Positions 5,292 to 17,624 of a stretch of 19,802 bases of DNA are shown in pieces. Position numbers and translations under genes: made by a program. The stretch spans positions 1-19,802 of the forward strand of contig JADHUX010000001.1 of the NCBI GenBank assembly GCA_016784285.1. The letters are read 5' to 3'. The first letter of the stretch is position 1. Every line of letters begins with the position of its first letter. Under the pieces are notes generated by a model, which made no database searches, was not told the origin of the DNA, and saw only the letters and a list, made by a program, of their open reading frames with translations. The stretch is from Parcubacteria group bacterium. GTDB taxonomy: Bacteria > Patescibacteriota > Minisyncoccia > Phycocordibacterales > UBA2163.

Positions 5292-5300
5292 ACGCAAAAA

Positions 5301-5358
5301 TCGCGGGAAAAGGTCTTTCCTCGCGGAACAAAGTGGAGAGAGGTGAGACCTTGAGGAG
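5301..5358 (+). repeat. Dispersed hairpin repeat, copy A
   Basis: One of five related intergenic elements (others at 7326, 15090, 17096, 17556). Read on the plus strand it begins TCGCGGGAAAAGGTCTTTCC and ends with CTTGAGGAG. The arms AAGGTCT (5310-5316) and AGACCTT (5346-5352) pair perfectly. It lies 3 bases from the dksA-like stop codon, in the opposite orientation to that gene, and just upstream of comM. Copy B is identical over about 45 bases except at one position. Confidence 0.85.
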
Positions 5359-5361
5359 CAA

Positions 5362-5733
5362 CTATTCTTCTGGGCCTAAATGTTCTGCGCAAGTTTTAGC
5401 TGATGGATTTGCTTCGAGTCGTGCTACAGGTATTTGCTCTCCTGTATCTTCACATATTCCATACTTACCATCTTCAATCTTTTGTAATGCTTCTTTAAGG
5501 TTATTAAATCTTAATTCAAGATCTTTAACTAGAGCAATATTCTGGTCAAATGCAGCTCTTCTGTCTGAACTTTCGTTTTTATCTGCTTCTTGTATGTCAA
5601 GATTCTGCGGGATAGGCTCCCAGTCATTTGGGTTTGAAGGGTTAATCCTAGCTATCTTTTCAAGCTCTTCAGTTAAGACCTTGAGCTCTGTTTCTAACTT
5701 TTCTTTAAAATATTTTATATCTATTGTTTCCAT
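5362..5733 (-). CDS. DksA/TraR-type zinc-finger-like regulator with a degenerate finger
   Basis: A 123-residue protein of the DksA/TraR superfamily, whose members enter the RNA polymerase secondary channel and modulate transcription. The N-terminal half is a long charged helix-rich segment, probably a coiled coil. The C-terminal part carries the family finger: YGICEDTGEQIPVARLEANP followed by SAKTC-AEH. The normal C-x2-C-x17-C-x2-C is reduced to Cys, Thr, Cys, His, as in cysteine-poor DksA2- and YteA-like relatives, so zinc binding is uncertain. The start is set at the second ATG (5731-5733): the promoter TTGAGT-17-TATTAT predicts transcription beginning about 3 bases before it, whereas the ATG at 5740-5742 abuts the -10 box. 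If the longer form were used, the protein would gain MYI. Repeat copy A lies directly after the stop codon. Confidence 0.85.
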   Translation of the reverse strand: METIDIKYFKEKLETELKVLTEELEKIARINPSNPNDWEPIPQNLDIQEADKNESSDRRAAFDQNIALVKDLELRFNNLKEALQKIEDGKYGICEDTGEQIPVARLEANPSAKTCAEHLGPEE

Positions 5734-5742
5734 AATGTACAT

Positions 5743-5785
5743 ATAATATCAGCAAATTCTGATTAACTCAACCTGTTGAGTTAAT
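5743..5785 (-). promoter_or_regulatory. dksA-like gene promoter with a palindrome over the -35 box
   Basis: On the minus strand, -35 TTGAGT (5766-5771) and -10 TATTAT (5743-5748) are 17 bases apart. The -35 box sits inside a perfect 10-bp inverted repeat with a 4-base centre (5762-5771 and 5776-5785, ATTAACTCAA/TTGAGTTAAT). A dyad at this place could be an operator. It could also be an RNA hairpin at the end of the upstream transcript (the gene at 5819). Confidence 0.6.
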
Positions 5786-5788
5786 ACT

Positions 5789-5818
5789 CCAACAGCGAGG
5801 TTCAACCTCACTGTTTGG
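5789..5818 (-). other. Stable hairpin directly after the stop codon of the gene at 5819
   Basis: CCAACAG and GAGGT pair with ACCTC and CTGTTTGG around loop TCA, with one C/A mismatch and one bulged T. The stem starts at the base after the stop codon (5819-5821, minus strand). No U-tract follows, so it is more likely a 3'-end-protecting hairpin than a classical terminator. Confidence 0.55.
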
Positions 5819-6742
5819 TTATTTAAATCTAGATGATGTATGCCTTATAAAAACCTCTTCAAAGGTGTGTTGGTTTGTCGTTATGACGATAGTATTTTTA
5901 TCTATAAAAGAATAGAGTAGCACTATATCTCCATCTTCATTTCTTAAAACCCTGGTGTCTTGATTTTTTATAACGATATCACCAAAAGTGAGTGTGTTTA
6001 TTTTTGAAGAGTCGTCTGTTCGTACAATCGGTGTAACATCTATAGGTCCAAACAGTGGTGCTAAGTCATCTTTTATATATCTTTCCCATTTTAGCATTCC
6101 TGCAAAAGCGTTTTCATAAAAACTTGTCTGAAGTATTATAAACGGTTGATTACCATCAAACACATGGACACCGACCATAAACCTAGGATTAAGTGAACGT
6201 AAAAAGGACGCCGGAGCATCAGTATTGATTGCATTCAAAAAGTCTTCTGCGTCAACAAGAGATCTTTTCTGTAAACCTTCTGAATCTATGAAAGATTCTG
6301 TAATAAAAATATTCTCAATACTTCCTAGGGTTACCCTTGATTCATTGTTCAATGTACTTAGTTCGTTTAATATCTGCCTTCTTGATAAATCTGTTATATC
6401 AAACTCTTTTTCTTCTTCTGCAAAAATTATAGACGAGATTTTTGATTCAGGAGTAACTACACCTGAATCAGACTTACCATAAAAATAAAGAACAGACCCA
6501 GCTCCAAGCACTATAAGCGTAGTACTTAAAATAATAATACCAATCTTTTTAAGGCGCTTTTTTTGTTCTGGAGTGTTTTTCTTACTAGTTTTTTTAAGTC
6601 TTTTTTCATTTTCAGCTGTGGCAGCACTCACGACAGATGTGTTTTGCTCTGACATTACTTGAGCAAGGTCGTCTTTATATGTACGAAGCACTTTCAACGA
6701 CGAAGAATTATCTGATTGTGGTTGTGGTTTTTCTTCTGGCAT
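5819..6742 (-). CDS. Unknown single-pass membrane protein
   Basis: A 307-residue protein that I do not assign to a known family. Residues 1-65 are polar and cytoplasmic-looking, with the phrase LKVLRTYKDDLAQVM followed by a Lys/Arg-rich stretch (about 48-66). One strong hydrophobic segment (about 67-88) follows, then an exported region of about 220 residues with alternating charged and hydrophobic stretches and no cysteines. The basic residues before the membrane segment predict a cytoplasmic N-terminus. The layout is typical of uncharacterised Parcubacteria envelope proteins. It starts 12 bases after the stop of the NYN gene, with no recognisable Shine-Dalgarno sequence, so the two are probably co-transcribed. 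Tandem hairpins follow its stop codon. Confidence 0.75.
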   Translation of the reverse strand: MPEEKPQPQSDNSSSLKVLRTYKDDLAQVMSEQNTSVVSAATAENEKRLKKTSKKNTPEQKKRLKKIGIIILSTTLIVLGAGSVLYFYGKSDSGVVTPESKISSIIFAEEEKEFDITDLSRRQILNELSTLNNESRVTLGSIENIFITESFIDSEGLQKRSLVDAEDFLNAINTDAPASFLRSLNPRFMVGVHVFDGNQPFIILQTSFYENAFAGMLKWERYIKDDLAPLFGPIDVTPIVRTDDSSKINTLTFGDIVIKNQDTRVLRNEDGDIVLLYSFIDKNTIVITTNQHTFEEVFIRHTSSRFK

Positions 6743-6754
6743 TTTTAAATATTC

Positions 6755-7273
6755 TTATCTACCTCTATACCCCATTAAATATCTTCTTGGGTTGTCAGAC
6801 ATATCGATGAAGTCGTCTGCTGCTTCTTTAAGTTTACCTGAAGACGATTTACCAAACGATATTACTTCTACCTGACATCCTTCTTTCATTTTAAGATATT
6901 CAACAAGTGGTATGAAGTCTCCGTCGCCCGTTGCAAGTATTACTGCGTCTAGCTTTGCTGCCATAGAGACAGCGTCTATAGCTATACCTACGTCCCAGTC
7001 GGCTTTTTTAGCACCACCAAAGAACACTTGGAGTTCTTTACTCTTGATTTCAATACCAAGTTTTCCTAATGCTTCAAAGAAGCTGTTTTCCTCTCCTGAT
7101 TCTGTAGTAACCACATATGCACTAGCACGGATAAGATCTCTTCCTGCTAGAGCGTCTTTTATAACGTTACCAAAGTTTACTTTTGCTTTATATAAATTTT
7201 TAGCACTATGGTATAAGTTTTGTGTATCTATAAAAATACCAACGCGCTGATTTTTGTGTTTTATAACTGACAT
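6755..7273 (-). CDS. NYN-domain (PIN-like) putative RNase, LabA/DUF88 type
   Basis: A 172-residue single-domain protein. The NYN family shares the PIN nuclease fold and cuts RNA with a cluster of acidic residues binding divalent metal. The expected acidic positions are present: D16 in FIDTQNLY, D92/D94 in ADWDV with D100 downstream, and D117/D119 in LATGDGDF. This strand-Asp, 'D-D' helix, 'TGDGDF' order is the hallmark of the NYN/LabA group. The substrate cannot be inferred. It appears to lead a two-gene operon with the unknown membrane protein at 5819, which could imply a membrane-located partner, but that is only neighbourhood evidence. No strong ribosome-binding site precedes the ATG at 7271-7273. 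Confidence 0.88.
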   Translation of the reverse strand: MSVIKHKNQRVGIFIDTQNLYHSAKNLYKAKVNFGNVIKDALAGRDLIRASAYVVTTESGEENSFFEALGKLGIEIKSKELQVFFGGAKKADWDVGIAIDAVSMAAKLDAVILATGDGDFIPLVEYLKMKEGCQVEVISFGKSSSGKLKEAADDFIDMSDNPRRYLMGYRGR

Positions 7274-7325
7274 AATATTAAAAGTTTAAAATGAAAAATG
7301 AAAAATGTAAAGTAACAACTTAGTA

Positions 7326-7374
7326 GAAAAAGGTCTTTCCTCGCGGAACGAAGTGGAGAGAGGTGAGACCTTTT
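7326..7374 (+). repeat. Dispersed hairpin repeat, copy B
   Basis: Nearly identical to copy A, with one substitution (AACGAAG for AACAAAG). Its pairing arms are longer: AAAAGGTCT (7328-7336) with AGACCTTTT (7366-7374), 9 bp. It lies between the S15 terminator and the NYN gene start and lacks the GCGGG and GAGGAG flanks that copy A has. Confidence 0.85.
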
Positions 7375-7375
7375 G

Positions 7376-7410
7376 AAATAAAAAATAAAAAGCGTATTAA
7401 TACGCTTTTT
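7376..7410 (-). terminator. rpsO intrinsic terminator overlapping its stop codon
   Basis: A 10-bp stem (7401-7410 with 7387-7396, loop TTAA) reads AAAAAGCGTA/TACGCTTTTT. On the minus strand it is followed by a T-rich run. The first stem bases are the last two bases of the rpsO TAA, so the hairpin begins inside the stop codon. Confidence 0.85.
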
Positions 7411-7675
7411 ATTTCTTTAGACCGAGTTTCTTTAAAATAATACCGTATCGTTTCTTGTCTTTTTTCTCTAAATATTTCAAATGCTTTCTACGTGTAGCAA
7501 CCATACTTAAAAGACCTCTGCGTGGATGCTTGTCTTTATTGTTTTTCTTGAGGTGTTTTGTAAGTTCAGTGATCCTTTTAGTCAAAATTGACACCTGTAC
7601 TTCAGGAGAACCAGTGTCTTTGTCGTGAACTTGCGCCTCTTTTATTGATTTTGCCTTCTTTTTTGTTGTAAGCAT
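7409..7675 (-). CDS. rpsO: 30S ribosomal protein S15
   Basis: 88 residues, the normal S15 length. Family landmarks are clear: DTGSPEVQVSILTKRI, LT-HLK-N-KDKHPRRGLL, and VATRRKHLKYLEKKD near the C-terminus. S15 binds the central domain of 16S rRNA early in 30S assembly. The gene is monocistronic, with its own promoter (TTGCAA-17-TATTAT, 7685-7713) and a terminator overlapping the stop codon. The predicted transcript begins about 3 bases before the ATG, leaving no room for the structured leader through which S15 autoregulates in other bacteria. Confidence 0.98.
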   Translation of the reverse strand: MLTTKKKAKSIKEAQVHDKDTGSPEVQVSILTKRITELTKHLKKNNKDKHPRRGLLSMVATRRKHLKYLEKKDKKRYGIILKKLGLKK

Positions 7676-7684
7676 AACCTCAAT

Positions 7685-7737
7685 ATAATAGCAGAAAACA
7701 GTACATTTTGCAAGTATTCTAGCTTTTCTGCTACAAT
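7685..7737. promoter_or_regulatory. Divergent rpsO / xer promoters sharing one palindromic -35 box
   Basis: TTGCAA at 7708-7713 is its own reverse complement. Rightwards it is 18 bases from TACAAT (7732-7737), whose start site would be at or next to the xer ATG (7744). Leftwards it is 17 bases from TATTAT (minus strand, 7685-7690), whose start site would be about 3 bases before the rpsO ATG (7675). Both genes would be leaderless or nearly so, and their transcription may be mutually exclusive. Confidence 0.7.
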
Positions 7738-7743
7738 ATAGAT

Positions 7744-8673
7744 ATGTCGCAAAATATTGAACAGTTAAAACGAGAATTTCTAGAATACCTTGAAATTGAG
7801 AAAGGTAGAAGCCTAAAAACCATTCAAAACTATGACCGATATCTCTCCCGCTTTATTGAATTTACAGAAATAAAGAAGCCTCAAAACATAAGTGACGATG
7901 TAGTACGCAAATTCCGCCTATGGCTTAACAGACAAGAAAGTGGGGCTGTCACAGAAGGTGTCAATGACACACTAAAGAAAAAGACTCAGAACTACTACCT
8001 CATAGCCCTCCGTGCATTCCTAAAGTTCTTACGTCGCCGTGAAATAGACTCCCTTTCCCCTGAGCGGATAGAGCTAGCGAAAGTTGGCGACCGGGATATA
8101 GATCTTATCTCAGCAGATGACCTAGAAAGACTTATGTTAGCTCCTGATGGTACTGATGTTAAAAGTCTACGAGACAAAGCGATACTTGAACTACTTTTCT
8201 CTACGGGTCTCCGTGTGTCAGAGCTATGTTCACTTAACAATGACATTGATTTGAAGCGAGACGAGTTCTCAGTACGAGGAAAAGGAGAGAAGATACGAGT
8301 AGTGTTTATTTCAAGTACTGCCAAAGAAGCTATCAGACAATATCTAGACAAAAGAAAAGACATGGACGAAGCTATGTTCGTACAGTTTGGTAAGAATGCT
8401 GTAAATGCAAAATCTTTACGACTTTCTTCTCGCTCTGTGGAGCGGATCGTAAAACACTATGCGATAAAAGCAGGTATCTCTAAAAAAGTTACTCCACATG
8501 TCGTCCGCCACAGCTTTGCCACCGACTTACTCCAAAACGGCGCTGACCTTCGTTCTGTACAAGCGCTCCTCGGGCATGCAAACATAGCAACTACTCAAGT
8601 TTATACACACGTGACAGACAAACACCTCCGTGATATACACAAAACATTTCATGGAAAAAAACGTAAAAAATAA
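7744..8673 (+). CDS. Xer-type tyrosine recombinase
   Basis: A 309-residue site-specific recombinase of the XerC/XerD group, which in most bacteria resolves chromosome dimers at dif. The N-terminal SAM-like core-binding domain covers about 1-110 (the typical 'YL-IEKGRS-KTI-NY-RYL-RF'), the catalytic domain about 120-300. The complete active site is present: R157 (STGLRVSEL), K180 (RGKGEK), H252 and R255 (PHVVRHSFATDLL), H278 (LLGHANIATTQ) and the nucleophile Y287 (VYTHV). The length and the housekeeping neighbour (exonuclease III, 3 bases downstream) favour a chromosomal Xer protein over a phage integrase. XerC versus XerD cannot be decided, and small genomes often have a single Xer. The predicted mRNA is leaderless. 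Confidence 0.93.
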   Translation: MSQNIEQLKREFLEYLEIEKGRSLKTIQNYDRYLSRFIEFTEIKKPQNISDDVVRKFRLWLNRQESGAVTEGVNDTLKKKTQNYYLIALRAFLKFLRRREIDSLSPERIELAKVGDRDIDLISADDLERLMLAPDGTDVKSLRDKAILELLFSTGLRVSELCSLNNDIDLKRDEFSVRGKGEKIRVVFISSTAKEAIRQYLDKRKDMDEAMFVQFGKNAVNAKSLRLSSRSVERIVKHYAIKAGISKKVTPHVVRHSFATDLLQNGADLRSVQALLGHANIATTQVYTHVTDKHLRDIHKTFHGKKRKK

Positions 8674-8676
8674 AAT

Positions 8677-9444
8677 ATGAAAATACTATCTTGGAACGTA
8701 AATGGCATTCGTGCAATGCACAAAAAAGAAAACTGGAAAGATTTCCTAGCAGAAAATCCAGACATCTTTTGTGTACAAGAGACTAAAGCTCACCCAGACC
8801 AACTCTCAGACGAACTCAAAAACATAAACGGATACTCTTCTTACTTTGACTACTCTAAAACCAGAAAAGGCTATAGTGGAGTAGCTATATATACTAAGAT
8901 CAAGCCAGAAAAGGTAGTTTACGGTATGGGTATAGAAGAACTTGACCAAGAAGGGCGTCTTGTAACTCTATATTTTAAAGACTTTGTGCTTATGACTGGC
9001 TACTTCCCTAACGGTGGGCAAGGTCCAGAGAGACTAAAGTATAAATTAGAATTTTATGATGCGTTTTTAGAATACATTGACGAGATCAAGAAGAGCGGAC
9101 ATAAAATAATCTTCTGTGGTGATGTAAACACAGCACACGAAGAAATAGACCTAGCCCGACCAAAAGCTAACGAAGACAACACCGGCTTCCTCCCGATAGA
9201 GCGCGAGTGGATAGACGAAGTGATGCGCCACGGATACATAGATACATTCCGACACCTAAATCCTAACAAAAAAGATATGTATAGTTATTGGGACATGAAG
9301 ACAAGAGCTCGAGACCGCAACGTAGGCTGGCGCTTGGACTATTTCTTTATAAGCTCTGACTTACAAAAGGATTTAAAAGATGCGTTTATCCTCACAGACA
9401 TATATGGCTCTGACCACGCACCTACTGGTATAAAGCTATATTAG
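8677..9444 (+). CDS. xthA: Exodeoxyribonuclease III (AP endonuclease)
   Basis: 255 residues, normal length for ExoIII, which incises abasic sites and trims damaged 3' ends in base excision repair. Family motifs: KILSWNVNGIRA (2-13), CVQETKAH with the metal-binding Glu (about 32-39), SGVAIYTK, GYFPNGGQGPERL-YKLEFY (the catalytic Tyr region), CGDVNTAHEEIDLARPK, W-LDYFF, and the terminal catalytic GSDHAPT. The gene starts 3 bases after the xer stop codon and must be co-transcribed with it. No separate Shine-Dalgarno sequence is evident, which suggests translational coupling. The nearest clear terminator is at 9722-9773. Confidence 0.96.
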   Translation: MKILSWNVNGIRAMHKKENWKDFLAENPDIFCVQETKAHPDQLSDELKNINGYSSYFDYSKTRKGYSGVAIYTKIKPEKVVYGMGIEELDQEGRLVTLYFKDFVLMTGYFPNGGQGPERLKYKLEFYDAFLEYIDEIKKSGHKIIFCGDVNTAHEEIDLARPKANEDNTGFLPIEREWIDEVMRHGYIDTFRHLNPNKKDMYSYWDMKTRARDRNVGWRLDYFFISSDLQKDLKDAFILTDIYGSDHAPTGIKLY

Positions 9445-9488
9445 ACATTTTTTACATAAATTAATTACTTAAGAGACACCTTACTAAG

Positions 9489-9497
9489 TTATCCACA
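9489..9497 (+). promoter_or_regulatory. Perfect DnaA box
   Basis: TTATCCACA, the consensus DnaA box, in the gene-free stretch after xthA. Other perfect copies in this window are at 11415-11423, 12311-12319 and 13957-13965. Confidence 0.5.
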
Positions 9498-9687
9498 GTT
9501 ATGTCCTTTACATGTCTTTTAGAAGGAGTATTATTAAATCAGACCCGACGCTGTTCTTTCAACATTTTAATAGTTTGAATTTTATATGTTTGTAAGTATA
9601 TATATCCACAACTTACTTACACATTTTGCAAAAAAAGATATTGATACATGCATATATATTAAATTACAAACTAGACTTTTTTTCTCT

Positions 9688-9713
9688 TTTATAACTTTTC
9701 CCCGAGTTATAAA
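9688..9713 (+). other. Hairpin upstream of the 9722 terminator
   Basis: TTTATAACT (9688-9696) pairs perfectly with AGTTATAAA (9705-9713) around an 8-base loop TTTCCCCG. It stands 8 bases before the terminator stem, so any transcript ending there would carry two hairpins in a row. Confidence 0.5.
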
Positions 9714-9721
9714 TACCCTAT

Positions 9722-9773
9722 AAATCGCCTTCGATCCTTTTCTCCCAATATGATCGCTACGGCGATTTTTTTT
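9722..9773 (+). terminator. Plus-strand intrinsic terminator (xthA operon or a small RNA)
   Basis: AAATCGCC (9722-9729) pairs with GGCGATTT (9761-9768), and an inner CGATC/GATCG helix lies inside the large loop. Eight T's begin within the stem (9766-9773). In the minus direction no T-run follows, so it does not serve cca. It is about 280 bases after the xthA stop codon, which is long for a simple 3' UTR. Confidence 0.75.
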
Positions 9774-9783
9774 GCCTTAAATA

Positions 9784-11262
9784 TTACTTAACCCAGTGTT
9801 TCCCTCTCAAACCTTCTATTTCTTTCTCTTCTACTTCGTCTTTTTTTAGTTTACCTTTATCTCCGAGCTTTTTAAGCTCTGTTTCACTTAATTTTATAAG
9901 CTTTTTTGCTGTCTCTTCAAGGTATTCACTAGTATTTAGCTTTGGATCATCAAGAACCTCTTCTAAGAGCGCATGGAGTATAAAGCCTATTTTAGGTCCT
10001 GGTGTTTCATGTGTAACCTCCATTATCCTCGCACCGTCAATCTTAAGCATTGCGACAGATACTGGGTCTCTCAGAGCCTCTTCTATCATTGATTTGTACT
10101 TTCTAAGACGATATGGATTAGCTTTTGGTCTTCCCATCCCTATTCTGTCACATTCTCGTACATCCATAAGGTGCCATATGTTCTCTTCACCTACATTACT
10201 TATCATTCTTCTTACAGCAGAGAGTGTTATTTGGTCTGGATCAGAGAAAAATAGGTGCCAACGAACAAGTTTTGTTATTTGATCTATTTGTTTCTTGGGG
10301 AACTTTAGTCTTTCTAGTATTTTCTTAGTCATTCGCCCACCAACTACGTCATGCCCATGAAAAGTCCAGTCTTTTTTGTCATCAGACCACCTACTTGTTG
10401 CTGGTTTACCTATGTCATGAAATAAAGAAGCTAACCTTATCTCAAATGGATAATTTTTCTCTGCTGAGTGTTTAACAGAACGTAGATTATGCTCCCACAC
10501 AGTAAAGGCATGTGCCTGATTCTGTTGTTTGTCGATACCTTCCTCAAGTTCAGGTATAACAAACCGTAAAACACCCATTTCATGGGCTAATTCTAGAGCT
10601 TCCATAGGTCTATCTGACATAATTATCCTTATAAATTCGTCTTTTATTCGTTCTTTTGCGATCTTTTCTAACATTTTAGCGTCTTTTTCAATAGCTTTTT
10701 TAGTCTTTTCTTCTATTTTAAAGCCAAGTTCTGCTGAAATCCTTATTGCACGCAATATCCTAAGAGCATCTTCACTAAAACGGACATCTGGGTCCCCTAT
10801 TGCTCTTATAGTCTTATCTTCTATGTCTTTTTGACCTTCATGTAAATCAACAATCTGTCCTTTACTCTCATTATATGCGATAGCATTAATTGTGAAGTCA
10901 CGTCTTTTAAGGTCGTGCTCTATAGAGTCACTAAACTCTACAGAGTCAGGTCTTCTAGAATCTGTGTATTCTGACTCTAGTCTATACGGAGTTACTTCTA
11001 CCACCTTAAGTGTTTCATCCTGTGTTTCTTCGTTTACTACACCTACTGTACCGTAATCATTGTTATAATAAGTGTTATCAAACAGTTTTTCTATTTCTTC
11101 TGGCTTTGCATTTGTAGTTATATCCCAGTCTTTAGGAGCCTTCCCTATTAGCAAGTCTCTAACACAGCCACCAACAATATATGCCTCAAAACCAGCGTTT
11201 TCTAGTGTCTCTGTTACACATGAAACCTCTTTTGGTATATTAAATTTATTAGTTTTTGACAT
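9784..11262 (-). CDS. cca: CCA-adding tRNA nucleotidyltransferase with HD domain
   Basis: A 492-residue class II nucleotidyltransferase that builds or repairs the 3' CCA of tRNAs. The catalytic head shows IVGGCVRDLLIG (29-40) and the metal-binding D45-W-D47 pair. RRDFTINAIAY (120-130) and the D-x2-R-F-xE-D-ALRILRAIR stretch (about 157-174) form the nucleotide-selecting neck. An HD phosphohydrolase motif follows (LFHDIGKP, H282/D283, with a further conserved HGHD downstream), giving the longer HD-containing form. The gene matters here because three of the four tRNA genes in the window lack an encoded CCA. It is divergent from tRNA-Arg, with a TATAAT box on its own strand at 11275-11280 giving a leader of only a few bases. 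Polyadenylating specificity cannot be excluded from sequence alone. Confidence 0.93.
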   Translation of the reverse strand: MSKTNKFNIPKEVSCVTETLENAGFEAYIVGGCVRDLLIGKAPKDWDITTNAKPEEIEKLFDNTYYNNDYGTVGVVNEETQDETLKVVEVTPYRLESEYTDSRRPDSVEFSDSIEHDLKRRDFTINAIAYNESKGQIVDLHEGQKDIEDKTIRAIGDPDVRFSEDALRILRAIRISAELGFKIEEKTKKAIEKDAKMLEKIAKERIKDEFIRIIMSDRPMEALELAHEMGVLRFVIPELEEGIDKQQNQAHAFTVWEHNLRSVKHSAEKNYPFEIRLASLFHDIGKPATSRWSDDKKDWTFHGHDVVGGRMTKKILERLKFPKKQIDQITKLVRWHLFFSDPDQITLSAVRRMISNVGEENIWHLMDVRECDRIGMGRPKANPYRLRKYKSMIEEALRDPVSVAMLKIDGARIMEVTHETPGPKIGFILHALLEEVLDDPKLNTSEYLEETAKKLIKLSETELKKLGDKGKLKKDEVEEKEIEGLRGKHWVK

Positions 11263-12148: not shown

Positions 12149-12154
12149 TAATTT

Positions 12155-12300: not shown

Positions 12301-12339
12301 TGTGTATAACTGTGGATAATACTGGGGATATGTGTATAA
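12301..12339 (-). promoter_or_regulatory. Cluster of phased DnaA-box-like sites (candidate oriC element)
   Basis: Reading the plus strand, TGTGTATAA (12301-12309), TGTGGATAA (12311-12319, exact complement of TTATCCACA), a degenerate TGGGGATAT (12324-12332) and TGTGTATAA (12331-12339) lie in the same direction at roughly 10-base steps. AT-rich sequence follows (12350-12450). The next landmark is parS at 12454. The cluster is what a DnaA-binding array would look like. No dnaA gene is in the window. Confidence 0.5.
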
Positions 12340-12453
12340 GAGACAATATTGACCAATAGTTAATTAATACGTCTTTTTAGTTAAAAATGGCTTAAAATAA
12401 GATTATTTGAAGTCAAAAGGTCATACAATAGACACAGATTGTATATTTAAACA

Positions 12454-12469
12454 GGTTTCACGTGAAACA
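12454..12469. promoter_or_regulatory. parS site (ParB-binding centromere-like element)
   Basis: GGTTTCACGTGAAACA matches the bacterial parS consensus TGTTTCACGTGAAACA at 15 of 16 positions, with the 14-base palindromic core intact. It lies in the leader of the yraN-like gene, 115 bases from the DnaA-box-like cluster. ParB nucleates on such sites to organise and segregate the origin region. A chance match this good in 20 kb is very unlikely. Confidence 0.75.
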
Positions 12470-12491
12470 TTCAGTAATTACTCTTCTACTG

Positions 12492-12507
12492 GGTTACACA
12501 TGTAACA
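12492..12507. promoter_or_regulatory. Degenerate parS-like palindrome
   Basis: GGTTACACATGTAACA matches parS at 12 of 16 positions and keeps the inverted arms GTTAC/GTAAC. It lies 38 bases from the good parS site and 17 bases before the next gene. It may be a decayed or low-affinity ParB site. Confidence 0.35.
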
Positions 12508-12523
12508 TATACTAGAATAAATC

Positions 12524-12985
12524 ATGGGTTCTAAGACGAATAAACAAAAAGTGGGAGAAATTGGTGAAAATGTAGCTTGTAGGTTTCTTATGAAACATAA
12601 TTTTGAGATAATTGAGAGAAATTATTGGAAAAAGTGGGGAGAAATAGATATTATTGCTAAAAAAAATAACATCTTGCACTTCATTGAAGTAAAGACAGTT
12701 TCAACTAAGCTAAACTGCGTGCCCCGTAAAGATTTTTCCGCAGAAAAATCTGATACTGGGGTTTCGTGTAGAACATTAAGTAATGTTACATATGAAACAG
12801 ATAGCTATAGACCGGAAGATAATATACATCCGTGGAAACTTAAGCGTTTGTCTAGAACTATACAAACATATCTACTTGAAAAGGGGAATGATGACCTGGA
12901 ATGGCAGTTTGACGCTATTGCTGTATATCTAGATATGACTAATAAAAAAGCGAAGATAGACTTTTTAGAAGATGTGGTTATATAA
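12524..12985 (+). CDS. YraN/UPF0102 family protein (nuclease fold)
   Basis: A 153-residue member of the YraN (UPF0102) family, predicted restriction-endonuclease-like fold and possible Holliday-junction or repair nuclease; its exact function is not established. The family core is clear: GEIGENVACRFLMKHNFEI-ERNY, then the catalytic-type motif WGEIDIIAKKNNILHFIEVKT (Asp and the E-V-K pair), and the C-terminal helix 'KLKRLSRTIQTYL'. Compared with a typical YraN of about 120 residues, an insert of roughly 35 residues (about 65-105, CVPRKDFSAEK to YRPEDNIHPWK) separates the core from that helix. The insert encodes VSCRT and VTYET from degenerate parS-like DNA. The start ATG at 12524 lacks a clear ribosome-binding site. 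A terminator begins within 2 bases of the stop codon. Confidence 0.85.
   Translation: MGSKTNKQKVGEIGENVACRFLMKHNFEIIERNYWKKWGEIDIIAKKNNILHFIEVKTVSTKLNCVPRKDFSAEKSDTGVSCRTLSNVTYETDSYRPEDNIHPWKLKRLSRTIQTYLLEKGNDDLEWQFDAIAVYLDMTNKKAKIDFLEDVVI
12760..12799. repeat. Two degenerate parS-like repeats inside the yraN-like gene
   Basis: 12760-12775 (GGTTTCGTGTAGAACA, 11/16) and 12784-12799 (TGTTACATATGAAACA, 13/16) resemble parS. Both are in the frame that reads intact parS as V-S-R-E-T; here they read V-S-C-R-T and V-T-Y-E-T. Between them AACATTA/TAATGTT forms a perfect 7-bp inverted repeat. Confidence 0.4.
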
Positions 12986-12986
12986 A

Positions 12987-13022
12987 CAAAAAGACATGTT
13001 TCTTATGAAACATGTCTTTTTG
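12987..13022. terminator. Bidirectional terminator of the yraN-like gene, with parS-like arms
   Basis: A perfect 16-bp stem with loop TTAT (12987-13002 with 13007-13022) has flanking A/T runs on both strands. Its centre, TGTTTCTTATGAAACA (12997-13012), matches parS at 13 of 16 positions with both six-base arms intact. It also faces tRNA-Pro on the minus strand. Confidence 0.85.
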
Positions 13023-13051
13023 TTGCGAAAAATCAAATCCCATTTAATTTT

Positions 13052-13122
13052 TCGGGGAGCCGAGAATCGAACTCGGGCCGCTCGGTCCCAAACCGAGTAC
13101 ACTACCACTATGCTACACCCCG
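13052..13122 (-). tRNA. tRNA-Pro (anticodon UGG)
   Basis: Anticodon arm CTCGG-TTTGGGA-CCGAG (TGG), T-arm CCGAG-TTCGATT-CTCGG, and the C1-G72 pair usual for bacterial tRNA-Pro. The acceptor CGGGGTG/CTCCCCG has a T-T mismatch at pair 6-67. CCA is not encoded. Confidence 0.93.
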
Positions 13123-13159
13123 TAACTTACTAATACTACACAATTTATCACTTTAACTC

Positions 13160-13199
13160 AAATAAAATAAAAACCCTTATTTATTAAAATAAAGGTTTT
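13160..13199 (-). terminator. Terminator of the gene at 13272
   Basis: On the minus strand AAAACCTTTATTT pairs with AAATAAGGGTTTT (13187-13199 with 13170-13182, one C/A mismatch, loop TAAT), followed by TATTTTATTT. It lies about 75 bases past the stop codon. Confidence 0.65.
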
Positions 13200-13271
13200 G
13201 TGTACTACATTACATAAGCCGCCACAGCTCTAAAGTTGATACTTTTGTTTATTGCCAATAATATTCAATCA

Positions 13272-13823
13272 TTAGCAACAACTATTTTCTTCTTTTGCAA
13301 CAGATGAAGTTTCTTCATCTTTGATAGACTCAAGGTTCCAGGTTTTATCCTCAAAAGAAGTTGCTTCAGCACTCTTAATGAGAGTGGTTTTTAGCCCTTC
13401 TACAGTGTCAACGTCACTAAGTTTGGCTATTGTTATGTTTTGGTCGACATCCTGATACCCAATCATCACATCAGTGATCATATTAGATACACAATTGTCT
13501 GGAGCGCTAGTTAGAATGATAGGAACCTCTTTGTTTAGAGCATCCTCTATCAAACCGGTAGCAGCTGAAATAAAACCAAAAACATCTGAACCTTTCTGCT
13601 TAGCGCGCTTCTCGGCTGTCGGGAAATTTTTGATATTAAGCAATAGACCGTTGATTTCTTTGTCGTCATCAATATCTATTGTTTTAACAGCCTCCGCTAC
13701 AGAACCCTTGAAGACAGATGATGTATTAATACCATCTAAAAGATTGTTGATCTGATCTCCAATACCCTCTGGAACGCCTACAATTAATAAATTTGTTTTC
13801 TTATTCTTCGAACTTGAATCCAT
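13272..13823 (-). CDS. Unknown soluble protein with alpha/beta (receiver-like) pattern
   Basis: 183 residues that I do not place in a family. After a polar start (MDSSSKNKK), TNLLIVGVPEGIGDQINNLLDG and GLLLNIKNFPTA suggest alternating strands and helices. VPIILTSAPDN near the middle looks like a receiver- or Rossmann-type strand. The catalytic Asp/Lys set of a response regulator is not evident. The tail (about 150-183) is acidic and low complexity and ends Cys-Cys. The start is fixed at ATG 13821-13823 by an AGGAGG Shine-Dalgarno sequence 8 bases upstream, the best in the window; a TTG 6 bases earlier is too close to it. A TTGACA-18-TATGGT promoter lies about 100 bases upstream. This gene, unlike its neighbours, is set up for leadered, efficient translation. 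Confidence 0.75.
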   Translation of the reverse strand: MDSSSKNKKTNLLIVGVPEGIGDQINNLLDGINTSSVFKGSVAEAVKTIDIDDDKEINGLLLNIKNFPTAEKRAKQKGSDVFGFISAATGLIEDALNKEVPIILTSAPDNCVSNMITDVMIGYQDVDQNITIAKLSDVDTVEGLKTTLIKSAEATSFEDKTWNLESIKDEETSSVAKEENSCC

Positions 13824-13920
13824 AAACAACTCCTCCTGTTATGCAAAATGTCATAAAAAATGAGTAAATTAGCCGTGGCAGGCTTATGCAATATGAAACT
13901 TTAAAGACAACGAAGTTCCT

Positions 13921-13950
13921 ACCATATCACGATCTTTAATGTACTGTCAA
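13921..13950 (-). promoter_or_regulatory. Promoter of the gene at 13272
   Basis: On the minus strand, -35 TTGACA (13945-13950, consensus) and -10 TATGGT (13921-13926) are 18 bases apart. This would give a leader of about 90 bases ending in the AGGAGG site. A perfect DnaA box lies 6 bases upstream of the -35 box. Confidence 0.6.
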
Positions 13951-13956
13951 TATTTT

Positions 13957-13965
13957 TGTGGATAA
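13957..13965 (-). promoter_or_regulatory. Perfect DnaA box
   Basis: TGTGGATAA on the plus strand (TTATCCACA on the minus). It lies in the divergent gap between the gene at 13272 and mscS and could allow DnaA to influence either promoter. Confidence 0.45.
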
Positions 13966-14023
13966 ATAGTATATTTGCAATACAAAGCAATATATTATAG
14001 AATATGTCAATAATTACATAAAT

Positions 14024-15082
14024 ATGACTAATTTAATATCAAATATCAATTTAAGTGCAGAATTCCTAGGCAATTCAACCCTTCAGTACGCTAAAGCTTT
14101 AGGGATTTTCATCGTATTAGTAGTAGTTTTCAAAATAGCCCAATATATAGTCCTCAAAAGACTAGGGAAGCTTGCGGAAAAGACTAAGACAGACATAGAT
14201 GACACCCTTATAAGCATTACAAAGAGCTTTAAGCCACCTTTCTATTGGTTTTTGGCATTTTACTTTGCAATGAAGTTCCTAGCCTTAAATGAGCTTACAA
14301 TGAAGATTATCACTGGTATCTTAGTAGTATGGGTTGTATACCAAGTTATTGCAGGAATACAGATACTTATAAACTATATTTTAAAGAAAAGATTTGCTAA
14401 AGAAGACGATGCTGGAGCAAAGTCAGCTATAAACTACATAAGTCTGATCTCAAAAGTATTGCTATGGGCAATAGGTCTACTTCTTATACTTTCTAACCTT
14501 GGTGTGGACGTGACATCACTCATTGCGGGGCTTGGTATTGGTGGTATTGCTATTGCGTTCGCACTTCAAAACATACTCTCTGATCTGTTTAGCTCATTTG
14601 CGATCTACTTTGACAAACCATTTGCAATAGGAGACTTCATAGTAACTGGAAGCCACAGCGGAACAGTGGAGAAGATCGGAATCAAGACAACTCGTATAAG
14701 AGCACTCCAAGGAGAGGAGATCGTGATCTCAAACAATGAACTTACAAGTGCGAGAATACAAAACTTTAAGAAGATGGAGAAGAGGAGAGTCGTTTCTTCT
14801 TTTGGAATACTTTATGAAACTCCGATTGAAAAAATAAAAAATATAAAGCAACTTGTAAAAAATATTTTCAATAAATTAGAAAACACAGAATTTAGTAGAA
14901 TACATTTTAAACAACTTGGAGACTTCTCACTTAACTTTGAAGTTGTCTACAACATAACAACAGGGGACTACAATACATTTATGGATGCGCAAGAAGAGTT
15001 CAACCTAAAACTCTTAGAAGTATTTGAAGAAGAAGGTATTGAGTTTGCTTACCCAACTCAAAAACTATTTGTAACGAAGTAA
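14024..15082 (+). CDS. mscS: MscS-family mechanosensitive ion channel
   Basis: A 352-residue membrane channel that opens under membrane tension to release solutes in hypo-osmotic shock. Hydrophobic segments lie at about 24-44, 74-92, 96-118 and 140-162. The pore-lining helix is the Gly/Ala-rich segment SLIAGLGIGGIAIAFALQN (about 168-186), followed by the conserved LSDLFSSFAIYFDKPFAIGD and the beta domain (GTVEKIGIKTTRIRALQGEE, VISN-ELTSARIQNF). The C-terminal cytoplasmic vestibule ends in FAYPTQKLFV. With about five segments it is slightly larger than E. coli MscS (286 residues, three segments) but much smaller than MscK. It is monocistronic, divergent from the gene at 13272 and convergent with the protease gene, with repeat copy C between the two stop codons. 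Confidence 0.94.
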   Translation: MTNLISNINLSAEFLGNSTLQYAKALGIFIVLVVVFKIAQYIVLKRLGKLAEKTKTDIDDTLISITKSFKPPFYWFLAFYFAMKFLALNELTMKIITGILVVWVVYQVIAGIQILINYILKKRFAKEDDAGAKSAINYISLISKVLLWAIGLLLILSNLGVDVTSLIAGLGIGGIAIAFALQNILSDLFSSFAIYFDKPFAIGDFIVTGSHSGTVEKIGIKTTRIRALQGEEIVISNNELTSARIQNFKKMEKRRVVSSFGILYETPIEKIKNIKQLVKNIFNKLENTEFSRIHFKQLGDFSLNFEVVYNITTGDYNTFMDAQEEFNLKLLEVFEEEGIEFAYPTQKLFVTK

Positions 15083-15089
15083 AATATCT

Positions 15090-15158
15090 CTCCTCAATGA
15101 AGAAGGAGTTTCGTAACTTCTTCATCGTCTATCACGAGGAACGACCTTTTCCCGCGAT
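15090..15158 (-). repeat. Dispersed hairpin repeat, copy C
   Basis: On the minus strand it starts TCGCGGGAAAAGGTCGTTCC, contains a 9-bp hairpin (15117-15125 with 15097-15105) and ends TTGAGGAG. The hairpin insert is shared with copy E, with one difference. The GGTC-type 3' arm seen in A, B and D is absent. It lies 4 bases after the protease stop codon and 7 bases after the mscS stop codon. Confidence 0.8.
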
Positions 15159-15162
15159 CTTT

Positions 15163-16326
15163 TTATCTCTTATTTAATTCATTCTCTAATAACTGAGTAA
15201 GAGCGGGTGCTAAGCTTTCATTAAATATATCTGCTTGAGCTGAGACGTCACTACTGAACAAAGCCTGTAAGTTAAACCCTGTGTCCTTTACAAAGCTTCT
15301 GTTTATATGGCCTATAGCGATAGCTCTTAGGTCACGCTCTCCTGTGGTCTCTGCTACAGAACTCGTTACTATGATCCCTGTTAGCTCGTTTCTATCGTTT
15401 ACTACAGCCCCTCCTGACGAACCTTGTTGTGCTACGACAGATCCACCTATTGAAAACAGATCTAAAGTTCCTTCCTTAAATGTAAATACTTCCATCACTT
15501 GTGTCACACTAGAACTTATATACAAACTTTTAGAAATAGCGATACCGCTTAGGAATCCTGCCGGATACCCTGCAAGCAGTACATTGTCTCCTTTAGTGAT
15601 ACTACCACTGTCGTAGAAAGGTTTAATAAACGAAAACTTGTCTGGGATAGTTTTAGTTGGATCAGTTCGACCTGTTATAAGAAGTAGTGCGTAGTCGTCC
15701 TCACCTGTGCCTTTAGGTTCTTGCTGTATAATACCGTTTGCATTTGCCTTAATCCAAGACGGAGATATGAAAAGTGGTTTTGCAGTATAAAGAGGTTTAG
15801 CAGGAGAGCCTGTTCTTATAACACAATTAATAAAATCTTCTGTTACATAATCTTCGATTAAAAAGTACTGAGCAACGTGCGCATTGGTAAGGATGATTCC
15901 TCGTTCGTCTATGACGACCCCACTTCCTGTCACTGGTTTGAACAAACCGCCACTCTTCGTAGTACAAAATATATTTACGAGTGCCTCTCTAGTAACTTCG
16001 TTTATTGTTGTGAACGATATCTGAGGAACTTCCTCTACGACAACTTCCTGAGCAGGCTCTTCCGCCACCTCTGGTACAGGTTTGACAGGAGCTGTCTGCT
16101 CTACAACCACTTCAGCCTCTTCTTCTACCATTACTATTTCTTGTTTTTCTTCCACTAGCTGTGATTCTGTAATTTCTGACATGATGGTCACCTCTTCCTC
16201 CAGAACCTGTACTGCCTGCAACTCTGTATCTTGCACTTGAGGTGTTACTTCGTTCGGCTCATAAGAAACCAGTGCAAAAAACACTACAATAATTAGTATA
16301 AAAATGATATACAAGACTGACTTCAT
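15163..16326 (-). CDS. Membrane-anchored trypsin-like (S1C/HtrA-like) serine protease without PDZ
   Basis: A 387-residue envelope protease. Residues 4-21 form a hydrophobic anchor or uncleaved signal. A Glu/Val/Pro-rich spacer (about 22-103) should hold the enzyme away from the membrane. The chymotrypsin-fold domain carries the triad: H150 in TNAHVA, D210 or D211 in GEDDYALLLI, and S304 in GSSGGAVV. No PDZ domain follows, only about 50 residues ending in a helical tail, so it is not a full DegP/HtrA. Cysteines at 121 and 168 could pair. It is divergent from the acidic-peptide gene. A TATAAT box at 16339-16344 on its strand gives a leader of about 5 bases; the -35 is weak. Substrate unknown. 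Confidence 0.87.
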   Translation of the reverse strand: MKSVLYIIFILIIVVFFALVSYEPNEVTPQVQDTELQAVQVLEEEVTIMSEITESQLVEEKQEIVMVEEEAEVVVEQTAPVKPVPEVAEEPAQEVVVEEVPQISFTTINEVTREALVNIFCTTKSGGLFKPVTGSGVVIDERGIILTNAHVAQYFLIEDYVTEDFINCVIRTGSPAKPLYTAKPLFISPSWIKANANGIIQQEPKGTGEDDYALLLITGRTDPTKTIPDKFSFIKPFYDSGSITKGDNVLLAGYPAGFLSGIAISKSLYISSSVTQVMEVFTFKEGTLDLFSIGGSVVAQQGSSGGAVVNDRNELTGIIVTSSVAETTGERDLRAIAIGHINRSFVKDTGFNLQALFSSDVSAQADIFNESLAPALTQLLENELNKR

Positions 16327-16338
16327 AATATTATCTAT

Positions 16339-16344
16339 ATTATA
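16339..16344 (-). promoter_or_regulatory. -10 box of the trypsin-like protease gene
   Basis: TATAAT on the minus strand, 12 bases before the ATG, so the leader would be about 5 bases. No good -35 is seen at the expected distance. Confidence 0.45.
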
Positions 16345-16391
16345 GCACTTTATTTACATAGGCTGACCACCTTATATAACCATTGTACGGG

Positions 16392-16419
16392 TTGACAAAT
16401 ATTTTCATTCGTGTATACT
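16392..16419 (+). promoter_or_regulatory. Strong promoter of the acidic-peptide gene
   Basis: TTGACA (16392-16397) and TATACT (16414-16419) with a 16-base spacer. The predicted start is near 16426, giving a leader of about 94 bases. Together with the ncRNA promoter it is one of the two most consensus-like promoters in the window. Confidence 0.75.
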
Positions 16420-16430
16420 ATAAGGTATAG

Positions 16431-16458
16431 AAGCTTAGGGTTTTCCTGAGTTTTTATT
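16431..16458 (+). promoter_or_regulatory. Attenuator-like hairpin in the leader of the acidic-peptide gene
   Basis: CTTAGG (16434-16439) pairs with CCTGAG (16445-16450, one G-U pair) around GTTTT, extendable by A-U pairs to 9 bp, and is followed by TTTTTATTTATTTATT. It has the shape of a weak intrinsic terminator immediately after the predicted start site. A palindrome CCTCTAGAGG lies further down the leader. Confidence 0.5.
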
Positions 16459-16519
16459 TATTTATTAAGCAAGTTTAAATAGACCTCTAGAGGCACGTTT
16501 AGGCTTTAAATAAAAAAAC

Positions 16520-16630
16520 ATGGAAGAAAACATGAACGTAGAAGGAGCAGAAAATACAGCTCCTGAAGCTACTCCTGAAACTCCTGCAACAGAAGGTGCA
16601 GAAGAGAATACAGAAGAAGCAGCTGCATAG
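16520..16630 (+). CDS. 36-residue acidic Ala/Glu/Pro/Thr peptide
   Basis: The ATG at 16520 follows an A-rich stretch and the TAG is at 16628-16630. The product starts MEENMNVEGAENTAPEATPE and ends EENTEEAAA. It has no hydrophobic or basic segment, is low complexity and should be disordered and soluble. The evidence that it is expressed is its setting: a near-consensus promoter, a 94-base structured leader, and a strong terminator 7 bases after the stop codon. No purine-rich AGGAGG-like site is present. I do not recognise a family. The locus could alternatively make a regulatory RNA in which the ORF is incidental. Confidence 0.6.
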   Translation: MEENMNVEGAENTAPEATPETPATEGAEENTEEAAA

Positions 16631-16636
16631 TCAGCA

Positions 16637-16673
16637 ACAAACCCCATCGCTTTGCGATGGGGTTTGTTTTTTT
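16637..16673 (+). terminator. Strong intrinsic terminator after the acidic-peptide gene
   Basis: A 14-bp perfect stem (16637-16650 with 16654-16667), loop TTT and a seven-T run (16667-16673). It ends 5 bases before the 3' end of the opposing tRNA-Gly gene. Confidence 0.93.
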
Positions 16674-16678
16674 GTCTG

Positions 16679-16749
16679 TGCGGGTAGGGGGAATCGAACC
16701 CCCGTCTACTGCTTGGAAGGCAGTCATTCTACCACTAAACTACACCCGC
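16679..16749 (-). tRNA. tRNA-Gly (anticodon UCC)
   Basis: Acceptor GCGGGTG/TACCCGC (one G-U pair), anticodon arm ACTGC-CTTCCAA-GCAGT (TCC), T-arm GGGGG-TTCGATT-CCCCC, discriminator A. CCA is not encoded. A TATTAT box lies about 10 bases upstream of the 5' end on its strand. Confidence 0.94.
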
Positions 16750-16791
16750 AATTTACGTATAATAGCAGACTTTTTATTTTTTTCACAGTTA

Positions 16792-16820
16792 TTGACACAA
16801 TTCATCAAATCCTATATTAT
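16792..16820 (+). promoter_or_regulatory. Consensus promoter of the ncRNA at 16823
   Basis: A perfect -35 TTGACA (16792-16797), 17-base spacer, -10 TATTAT (16815-16820). The predicted start falls at about 16823-16827, exactly where the first helix of the ncRNA begins. Confidence 0.8.
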
Positions 16821-16822
16821 CT

Positions 16823-17018
16823 ACCTTAGGCAGTGTTTAGTGATCCTCACTGAAAGTCTTACTTGTTTTAGGGACCAAGCAAGACGAGAAGGATAATCGA
16901 TTCCCGAATTATCTAGATTATACGGTAAGTGAGGTATATTACACGATACATGCGCGCGACCTAAGGACAAAACCCTAACAGCACAGCAGCCAACCTTAAA
17001 AAAGTTGGCTGTTTTTTT
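16823..17018 (+). ncRNA. Structured non-coding RNA of unrecognised family, about 195 nt
   Basis: No convincing ORF is present, yet there is a consensus promoter and a strong terminator. Helices seen by eye: P1 CCTTAGG/CCTAAGG (16824-16830 with 16960-16966); P2 CCTCACT/AGTGAGG (16845-16851 with 16928-16934); P3 GTCTTACTTG/CAAGCAAGAC (16856-16865 with 16876-16885, one mismatch); P4 GATAAT/ATTATC (16892-16897 with 16908-16913). The P3 loop TTAGGG (16868-16873) is complementary to CCCTAA in the 3' tail (16973-16978), a possible pseudoknot. AGTGA-TCC-TCACT (16839-16851) competes with P2, so a switch is possible. Length and the closed long-range stem recall 6S RNA, but the branched P3/P4 interior does not fit a simple rod. 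I see no RNase P, tmRNA or SRP RNA signatures. It is followed by an opposing HU gene, so it is not a riboswitch for an adjacent ORF. Confidence 0.75.
16987..17018 (+). terminator. Intrinsic terminator of the ncRNA
   Basis: CAGCCAAC (16987-16994) pairs with GTTGGCTG (17004-17011) around a 9-base loop, followed by seven T's (17012-17018). Confidence 0.93.
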
Positions 17019-17032
17019 ATTTAAATATAAAC

Positions 17033-17077
17033 AAACAACAAAACCCGCAAAGCAAAGCTTTGCGGGTTTTGTTGTTT
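17033..17077. terminator. Very long perfect hairpin between the ncRNA and hup
   Basis: A 21-bp perfect stem with an AAA loop (17033-17053 with 17057-17077) has a GC-rich core and A/T-rich flanks, so it can act on both strands. It probably ends the hup transcript (minus strand), after repeat copy D, and backs up the ncRNA terminator. Confidence 0.8.
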
Positions 17078-17095
17078 CTTCTAGAAAAAAATAAC

Positions 17096-17158
17096 ACTCC
17101 TTAAGGTCGCACCTCTCCCGTCGCTTCACTCCTCCTCGAGGAACGACCTTTTTCCGCG
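17096..17158 (-). repeat. Dispersed hairpin repeat, copy D
   Basis: On the minus strand it starts CGCGGAAAAAGGTCGTTCC and ends AAGGAGTG. Arms AAGGTCG (17144-17150) and CGACCTT (17103-17109) pair perfectly: where copies A and B have T-A at the inner pair, D has G-C, a compensatory change. It starts 1 base after the hup stop codon, in the same direction. Confidence 0.85.
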
Positions 17159-17159
17159 T

Positions 17160-17432
17160 TTATTTTACTGCGTCCTTTAGAGCTTTTGCTGCTCTAAACT
17201 TAGGAATTCGCATTGCTTGAATCTGAATGCTTTCTCCTGTGCGAGGGTTTCGCCCTTGGCGAGCTGCTCGCATTTTTGTTGAGAATATCCCAAGACCTGC
17301 TAGTGAAACCTCTTCACCGCCTTTTAGGCCTTCTACGATAGAATCAACTACCATATCTACTGCTTTTTCTGCTTGAACCTTTGTACCTCCAAGCATTTCA
17401 TGAACTTTCTCTGCAATTGTTGCTTTATTCAT
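17160..17432 (-). CDS. hup: HU-family DNA-binding protein
   Basis: A 90-residue histone-like protein that bends and compacts DNA as a dimer. It shows the standard order: helical dimer interface (MNKATIAEKVHEML to AVDMVVDSIVEGL), then VSLAGLGIFSTKMRAARQGRNPRTGESI with the flexible beta arm and its intercalating Pro in RNPRTG, and the C-terminal helix PKFRAAKALKDAV. Length and the unextended arm favour HU over the IHF subunits. Its promoter is TTGCTT-16-TATAAT, with an inverted repeat across the -10 box. The leader is about 55 bases. The 3' UTR carries repeat copy D and then a 21-bp hairpin. Confidence 0.96.
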   Translation of the reverse strand: MNKATIAEKVHEMLGGTKVQAEKAVDMVVDSIVEGLKGGEEVSLAGLGIFSTKMRAARQGRNPRTGESIQIQAMRIPKFRAAKALKDAVK

Positions 17433-17482
17433 ATTATGTAATGGTGTGAATTTATGTACTTCTAAACTCGACCGTTTTATTA

Positions 17483-17521
17483 CTTACTAGATAATTATAT
17501 AGTAAGCCACTATTTAAGCAA
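17483..17521 (-). promoter_or_regulatory. hup promoter with a dyad across the -10 box
   Basis: On the minus strand, -35 TTGCTT (17516-17521), 16-base spacer, consensus -10 TATAAT (17494-17499). CTTACTA (17483-17489) and TAGTAAG (17500-17506) form a 7-bp inverted repeat flanking the -10 box exactly, a plausible operator. Confidence 0.7.
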
Positions 17522-17555
17522 TACCCTAGTAAATATGTGTGGAAAACTCATTTAT

Positions 17556-17624
17556 ACTCCTCAAGGACGACCTATGAAGAAGGAGTTTCGTATCTTCTTC
17601 ATCGAGGAAAGACCTTTTCCCGCA
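17556..17624 (-). repeat. Dispersed hairpin repeat, copy E
   Basis: On the minus strand it starts GCGGGAAAAGGTCTTTCC, carries the same internal 9-bp hairpin as copy C (one base differs in the loop region), then AGGTCGTCC and CTTGAGGAG. It begins 6 bases after the rny stop codon, in the same direction. The outer arms pair only through AAGG/CCTT. Confidence 0.82.

Follow-up and report, generated by a model that had tools for sequence, protein, structure and literature searches.

Rickettsia palindromic elements (RPEs; Ogata et al. 2000 and 2002, as cited by PMC10969869), of about 150 bp as given in that source, are the nearest known case to the repeats described here, and two of them, RPE-4 and RPE-6 of R. 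conorii, are CGTC members of the repetitive extragenic palindromes (REPs), which in their GTAG/CGTC form are palindromes of 20–40 bp (PMC3733652, in the portion available). The window analysed here, a stretch of 19,802 nucleotides from a Parcubacteria group bacterium (GenBank assembly GCA_016784285.1, contig JADHUX010000001.1), holds five copies, A to E, of a dispersed hairpin repeat that an earlier note on this DNA had picked out as a REP- or MITE-like family (MITE, miniature inverted-repeat transposable element). That observation is real and understated. The copies look like a patchy, small mobile DNA element of tiny, mostly uncultured Patescibacteria; they fold in a strand-specific manner, occur in frame within protein genes as well as between genes, and mostly carry complementary outer arms that differ from site to site. 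They probably represent a non-autonomous mobile palindromic element that acts as a folded single strand. What emerges is a family of mobile palindromes that can be read in frame, set apart by inverted flanks peculiar to each site, and among the open-licence papers listed in searches there was neither an earlier description of it nor a report of any protein-coding palindromic element in Patescibacteria.

The genome that carries the window (G000, here the host genome) is a 376,478-base draft, 70% complete, and the window is its contig 19. Its closest named protein relatives carry the labels Candidatus Paceibacteria or Pacebacteria, which makes the organism a patescibacterium. G005 is its nearest relative and G003 is a draft 59% complete; at the sites compared, relatives are approximately 65–95% identical to the host genome.

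A dispersed family of strand-specific hairpins

All five copies were found at the positions reported earlier. Their head, AAAAGGTCKTTCCTCG, occurs five times exactly in the window and seven times at up to three mismatches, against an average of 0.21 and a maximum of 2 in 200 shuffles at the latter tolerance. When two mismatches are allowed, the host genome has 40 instances of the head and one of the reversed pattern. Five of these 40 copies were dropped from the aligned set (no tail, contig end or compound), and of the 35 kept, 27 form alignment A1 and eight with long or different loops form A2. A covariance model made from 27 copies and run against the genomes of the genus at E up to 1 gave 46 matches in the host genome (all with E of 0.012 or better), 13 in G005, two in G001 and, weakly, two in G004 (E 0.12 and 0.83), with no matches in G002 and G003 at that threshold. 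The genome-wide search proposed in the earlier note thus returned many more copies and, as described below, more covarying pairs, and a structured, apparently mobile REP/MITE-like family is borne out. Across 379 genomes sampled from the phylum, with at most 12 candidates scored for each genome shown, five, the host genome among them, match at E up to 0.001, and a pattern scan adds one further carrier to these five. The copies in G147 are identical to those of JACPGU01, which is labelled Candidatus Microgenomates.

Pattern searches proved less discriminating. An exact-pattern scan of genome contigs gave 14 stretches, of which six belong to G005 and three are true copies (L281, L289 and L291), with L280, L284, L285, L287 and L293 set aside after giving no model match or a weak one (L287, 11.9 bits); the same scan of viral contigs gave none. 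In 98 genomes, the host genome included, a pattern search was rejected as a signal, since outside the genus its hits at one to two mismatches were about as numerous as those of the reversed-pattern control.

The order of the unit is arm, GC foot, GGGAA, AAGGTCK, TT, CCTC, variable loop, GAGG, TG, MGACCTT, GAGGA, GC foot and complementary arm. The core is mostly 53–60 nt long and the 78 matches assembled span 46–115 nt, most of them 68–98 nt and 26 exactly 77 nt. By eye, a small GCGAAGC-like hairpin often lies within the loop. The different inner hairpin previously reported for copies C and E is confirmed and recurs in L012, L041:1186 and L039:4859, five of the aligned copies in all, and its reverse complement is found in L021 and L038 (by eye). 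Variants at L041 1186–1274, L039 4859–4942 and 15079–15165 of the window lack the GACCTT return arm; the inner hairpin that they contain, ATGAAGAAG...CTTCTTCAT, is perhaps mobile in its own right. One copy is nested, oppositely oriented, in the loop of a second copy and has arms of its own, TTTGC/GCAAA.

Pairing and covariation both exceed their controls. Over the 78 matches 93.9% of cells pair, compared with 79.5% after shuffling, and 13 of 17 pairs have changed on both sides; in the model-fitted alignment of these matches covariation scores 0.392, compared with 0.141 for shuffled and no more than 0.099 for slid controls, and when 27 copies are aligned by MAFFT without fitting it scores 0.326 against 0.156. 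The change from T-A to G-C noticed in the window is real, recurrent and among the best-supported pairs: its 75 scorable rows comprise 41 U-A, 16 G-C, nine U-G, four A-U, one C-G and four unpaired. This inner-stem change is common to many copies and fits a constraint on the element's own fold; for the outer stem, the earlier argument from covariation to selection on structure is weak, for reasons given below. The mispairs are asymmetric (48 G.T against 17 A.C, p = 1.5e-4, leaving out one pair that is T.G in 56 rows), and of the two strands the written one gives the more stable fold in 72 of 75 rows when RNA energies are used and in 68 of 75 with DNA energies, three of the 78 matches being too short for this comparison.

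Copies within and between genes

Fourteen of the 78 matches are coding, all in frame and with no stop codon, in hosts assigned to families by Pfam. The five in the host genome lie in rnhB, leuS (two), ksgA and an LTD/PKD gene, and the single one of G005 lies in an LTD/PKD gene of the same kind, where the element occupies one point in opposite orientations in the two genomes. Beyond the genus, coding copies are found in leuS of JAHIYV01, an N6-methylase gene of G147, a recJ-type gene of G032, an LCAT-like gene of G048, and the leuS, gatB, methyltransferase and aminotransferase genes of G258. The sense frame yields a recurrent peptide, for example GKGLSSGSEADGGETLRS. One of the leuS insertion sites of the host genome is that of JAHIYV01 and the other is within a few residues of that of G258 (by eye); element-like words occur in four rows, the host's included, among the 120 leuS relatives listed. 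At one point of rnhB, inspection of 20 aligned proteins, the host's among them, shows ten with an insert and eight without, P0013 and P0014 being ambiguous by eye and outside both counts, and the insert of the relative P0003 reads like the antisense frame (by eye). The rnhB and leuS loops offer naturally occurring enzymes of both kinds, those that have the insert and those that lack it. The frames of a phosphoketolase (C22), an SMC protein (C20), an IPP transferase (C36) and an ATPase (C43), which apparently include a copy close to the start, were judged to be extended at the start and were kept out of the coding count.

Gene context was read from frames of at least 100 codons, which are not curated genes. 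The 47 rows of the host genome comprise five coding, three partial or nested and four without a gene on one side, and these 12 were left out of the context count. The 35 others divide into 26 between co-directional genes, four between convergent and five between divergent genes, and the claim that the repeat always lies 3′ of a gene is not confirmed. Among the 26 copies between co-directional genes, orientation to transcription is 13 sense to 13 antisense.

The earlier note had also proposed a role in mRNA 3′ ends. As an explanation of the family, this would make the repeat an RNA element, a hairpin that stabilises transcripts or ends transcription and was spread or kept for that role. The covariation is strong, as such a role would have it; the facing stop codon lies within 20 nt of the core in 17 of 30 host copies (one overlapping), the facing start within 20 nt in eight of 31, and a terminator-like hairpin takes the place of copy A in G005. 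Of 53 non-coding copies from the host genome, G005 and G001, 28 have a T-rich stretch after the written strand, which speaks for the proposal. On the other strand the figure is 19 of 53, near a background of 33% of random 20-mers from these loci (which were not selected to match AT-rich intergenic DNA), such that half of the copies would show the stretch in the wrong direction. A terminator scan, blind to loops longer than 8 nt and thus no guide to the element as a whole, lists only a small piece of copy C and one at the foot of copy A. The in-frame coding copies, the even orientation between co-directional genes, the five of 35 between divergent genes and the better fold of one fixed strand all weaken the proposal: the repeat is unlikely to act at mRNA 3′ ends alone, and an origin of the family as a 3′-end element is very improbable. 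Because the strand-specific fold is mostly blind to the direction of transcription, the evidence points to the folded single strand of the element itself, rather than host mRNA, as what matters.

Presence, absence and the origin of the arms

Presence or absence of the family differs between relatives, both among the window sites (Table 1) and elsewhere. G005 is without the element at sites A, B, C and D, has it at E, and has a further copy between xerC and xth, where the host genome has none. Twelve further host sites were compared, nine of which could be bridged to at least one relative, and every bridged relative lacks the element; L026 and L037 were bridged only across gaps of 500–720 nt, no bridge was obtained for L027, and the contig of L011 and L028 was outside the bridging search. 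By eye, the flanks of the host copies at C22:8038 (L011), C1:777 and C23:2424 match those of the G005 copies at C32:10365, C18:2532 and C25:973.

Table 1. Copies of the element in the window and one site that is empty in the host genome; gene names are from Pfam.
Feature	Position	Strand	Model match and form	Neighbouring genes	State in relatives
Copy A	5293..5369	+	85.9 bits; arms weakly complementary	dksA/traR-type gene and ComM-type (Mg chelatase) gene	G005: different, terminator-like hairpin instead
Copy B	7313..7389	+	67.7 bits; core stem intact; without GCGGG foot, AGGAG tail and paired arms	beyond S15 gene and its terminator-like hairpin, upstream of NYN-domain gene	no copy in bridged stretches of G005, G001, G002, G004
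Copy C	15079..15165	-	24.0 bits, E 0.00094; inner-hairpin variant without GACCTT return arm	flanked by MscS-type and trypsin-like genes (convergent)	missing from G005 and G001, where about 4–6 nt separate the stops (by eye)
Copy D	17086..17167	-	72.7 bits; G-C version of the covarying pair	3′ of HU-type gene	missing from G005, G001 and G002
Copy E	17546..17633	-	37.8 bits; inner-hairpin variant	3′ of RNase Y gene	G005: copy present, arms and loop differ; none in G001, G002, G004
Place without element	8671..8679	.		between XerC-type integrase and exonuclease genes	G005: copy present

The genes named earlier beside C, D and E agree with Pfam. An Rfam scan of the window at gathering score returned four tRNAs only and no known RNA family at the copies. 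The window also contains two strong terminator-like hairpins, at 17033–17077 and 16636–16668, and a separate perfect inverted repeat with 25-nt arms, likewise terminator-like, at 19357–19409; sequences like the latter repeat at several places in G005 and may constitute another dispersed hairpin family.

The earlier note was borne out as to copies and family, and did not include the copy-specific complementary flanks or the coding copies. At arm positions 3–8, Watson-Crick pairs fill 58 of 84 cells in the 14 coding copies, where shuffling gives a mean of 28.0, and 248 of 372 cells in 62 non-coding copies, where it gives 139.1, neither figure being reached in any of 5000 shuffles; two of the 78 matches, without full arms, were left out. 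Arm pairing is not universal, B having no paired arms and A weak ones. Over the resulting 76 copies, inverted runs at the flanks number 382 against 190.2 shuffled, whereas direct target repeats number 198 against 200.7, with 620 of 1000 shuffles as high. In 27 copies arm similarity shows no link to core similarity, so that the arms seem not to be carried over from the donor to the daughter copy, an origin which is unsupported. For a pre-formed palindrome as the sole source of the arms, comparison with element-free places gave a mixed picture. Since the arms are site-specific and acquired site by site, coding sites included, outer-stem covariation does not prove selection on RNA.

In the explanation that we favour, the unit consists of a core (GGGAA-AAGGTCK-TTCCTC-loop-GAGG-TG-MGACCTT-GAGGA), a GC/GC foot and usually a site-specific outer stem of a few pairs. 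Its working form would be the written single strand, most likely DNA, folded as a hairpin with purine internal loops, and a putative trans-acting recombinase would move it into short intergenic gaps, at least once into the loop of another copy, and into tolerant protein loops, where only in-frame events would survive. The inverted flank would come either from entry into, or replacement of, the loop of a short inverted repeat, or from a flank copied back along the hairpin by repair or replication. The family, its fold and covariation, the strand asymmetry, the neutral orientation between genes, the differences in presence among relatives, the coding copies, the arms and the lack of direct target repeats are observed; the single-stranded DNA form, the recombinase and the origin of the arms are what we infer.

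Two routes to the arms have to be weighed. If the flank is copied in inverse along the hairpin by template switching, at insertion or in later replication, a fitting outer stem and occasional inversion in place would both result; template switching is already published as a source of compensatory changes possible in one step (PMC8794818, accessible part). This agrees with arms that are site-specific and independent of core similarity, with the several compensated differences at shared site E, where the arms of the host genome and G005 differ at several positions and are still paired (by eye), and with the opposite orientations at the same LTD/PKD point and, by eye, in the rnhB relative P0003. 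The right arm at xerC|xth looked freshly copied, but a native AT-rich stretch in G001 could be its source, and gatB suggests two native arms, leaving inverted copying a serious possibility that falls somewhat short of an even chance. Alternatively, the arms may be pre-existing short AT-rich inverted repeats whose loop the element replaces. The gatB residues from both arms do resemble those of four relatives without the element (by eye), copy L042 lies in the loop of a leader hairpin seemingly kept by relatives (by eye), and the nested copy sits within a hairpin loop; yet its arms TTTGC/GCAAA are unlike the usual loop (by eye), no clear palindrome is seen in G005 at sites C and D (by eye), and at five of the nine bridged sites (L009, L010, L042, L013 and L014) BLAST homology to the nearest bridged relatives stops 5–14 nt from the core on both sides. 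Insertion into a target hairpin is accordingly possible but rather doubtful, and the relatives compared do not separate it from inverted copying. By eye, a leader-like hairpin at L116 3407–3483, with counterparts at L209, L215 and L212, is seemingly conserved in the genus, and the host genome has a copy in its loop.

The mover could also be of a known type, the family being a REP mobilised by a REP-associated tyrosine transposase (RAYT) of the Y1 type. Y1_Tnp genes are common (frames 141–301 aa), with six in the host genome, five in G005 and 16 in G258, G032, G048 and G147 together, and they are present in nine of ten genomes examined. Their presence does not track that of the element, the 16 loci of the genus and the 16 of the four other genomes contain no copy (best 11.6 and 12.5 bits), and an unpaired GTAG or CGTC end tag was not seen, which leaves the RAYT idea of the earlier note without a link to these genes and mobilisation of this type improbable. 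The six host genes, IS200-like with frames of 141–233 aa, are on contigs 6, 18, 25, 30, 33 and 35.

Several points weigh against a mobile element acting as a folded single strand, the reading preferred here. At 65–95% identity between relatives the extent of native flank is uncertain. One of the 78 matches, L114:481–541, is a chance match by eye and two more are partial. The counts of pairing and of G.T and A.C mispairs use the model-fitted alignment, and G-U pairs are favoured by the RNA energy rule. Taken by themselves, the four outermost arm pairs show G.T to A.C at only 16:10 (p = 0.33), so that it is the foot and the inner stem that carry the strand bias. Coding copies are ten sense to four antisense, which is not neutral, though few. 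The T-rich stretches after 28 of 53 copies and the proximity of 17 of 30 to stops leave room for a secondary effect on transcripts. Finally, G001 has the element without a Y1_Tnp match and G002–G004 have Y1_Tnp without a convincing element, and no copy was found at the 32 Y1_Tnp loci within up to 1.5 kb on each side where the contig allowed. In a fuller version of the preferred reading, a mobile hairpin DNA would copy its target flank in inverse instead of directly when it integrates, would obtain a fitting outer stem of its own at each insertion and could flip in place; having spread over the Patescibacteria, it would have entered the same tolerant leuS and rnhB loops repeatedly, so that essential enzymes gained peptides such as GKGLSSGSEADGGETLRS. 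Taken whole, this is tentative and we consider it unlikely.

Comparison with known palindromic elements

The element resembles MITEs in being short and multi-copy with imperfect terminal inverted repeats, but differs in having no direct target duplication over the 76 copies and no parent insertion sequence, among Y1_Tnp genes, the only ones examined. With GTAG/CGTC REPs it shares dispersed palindromes that lie mostly beside gene ends, some of them intragenic (PMC3733652, as far as its accessible part describes them). Its matches of 46–115 nt and core of mostly 53–60 nt exceed the 20–40 bp given there; its stems are longer and stacked, with a site-specific outer stem; its ends are GCGGGAA and GAGGAGC, with GGTC lying within a paired stem rather than as a tag; and none of the 32 Y1_Tnp loci shows the transposase gene flanked by copies that characterises a REP with its RAYT.

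By analogy, the element appears comparable to the RPEs, which in the accessible part of PMC10969869 are likewise short palindromic repeats of small genomes, both intergenic and in frame within unrelated genes. Their hallmark, a palindrome read in frame in unrelated protein genes, is seen here in the coding matches. The differences, drawn against the description of RPEs and not their consensus, are the phylum, the length (most matches 68–98 nt, against the approximately 150 bp of that source) and the site-specific arms, which belong to the Patescibacteria element. The family makes a case for not reading outer-stem covariation as selection on RNA and, with the nearest known case in Rickettsia, also of reduced genomes, small genomes may have been parasitised by in-frame palindromes time and again.

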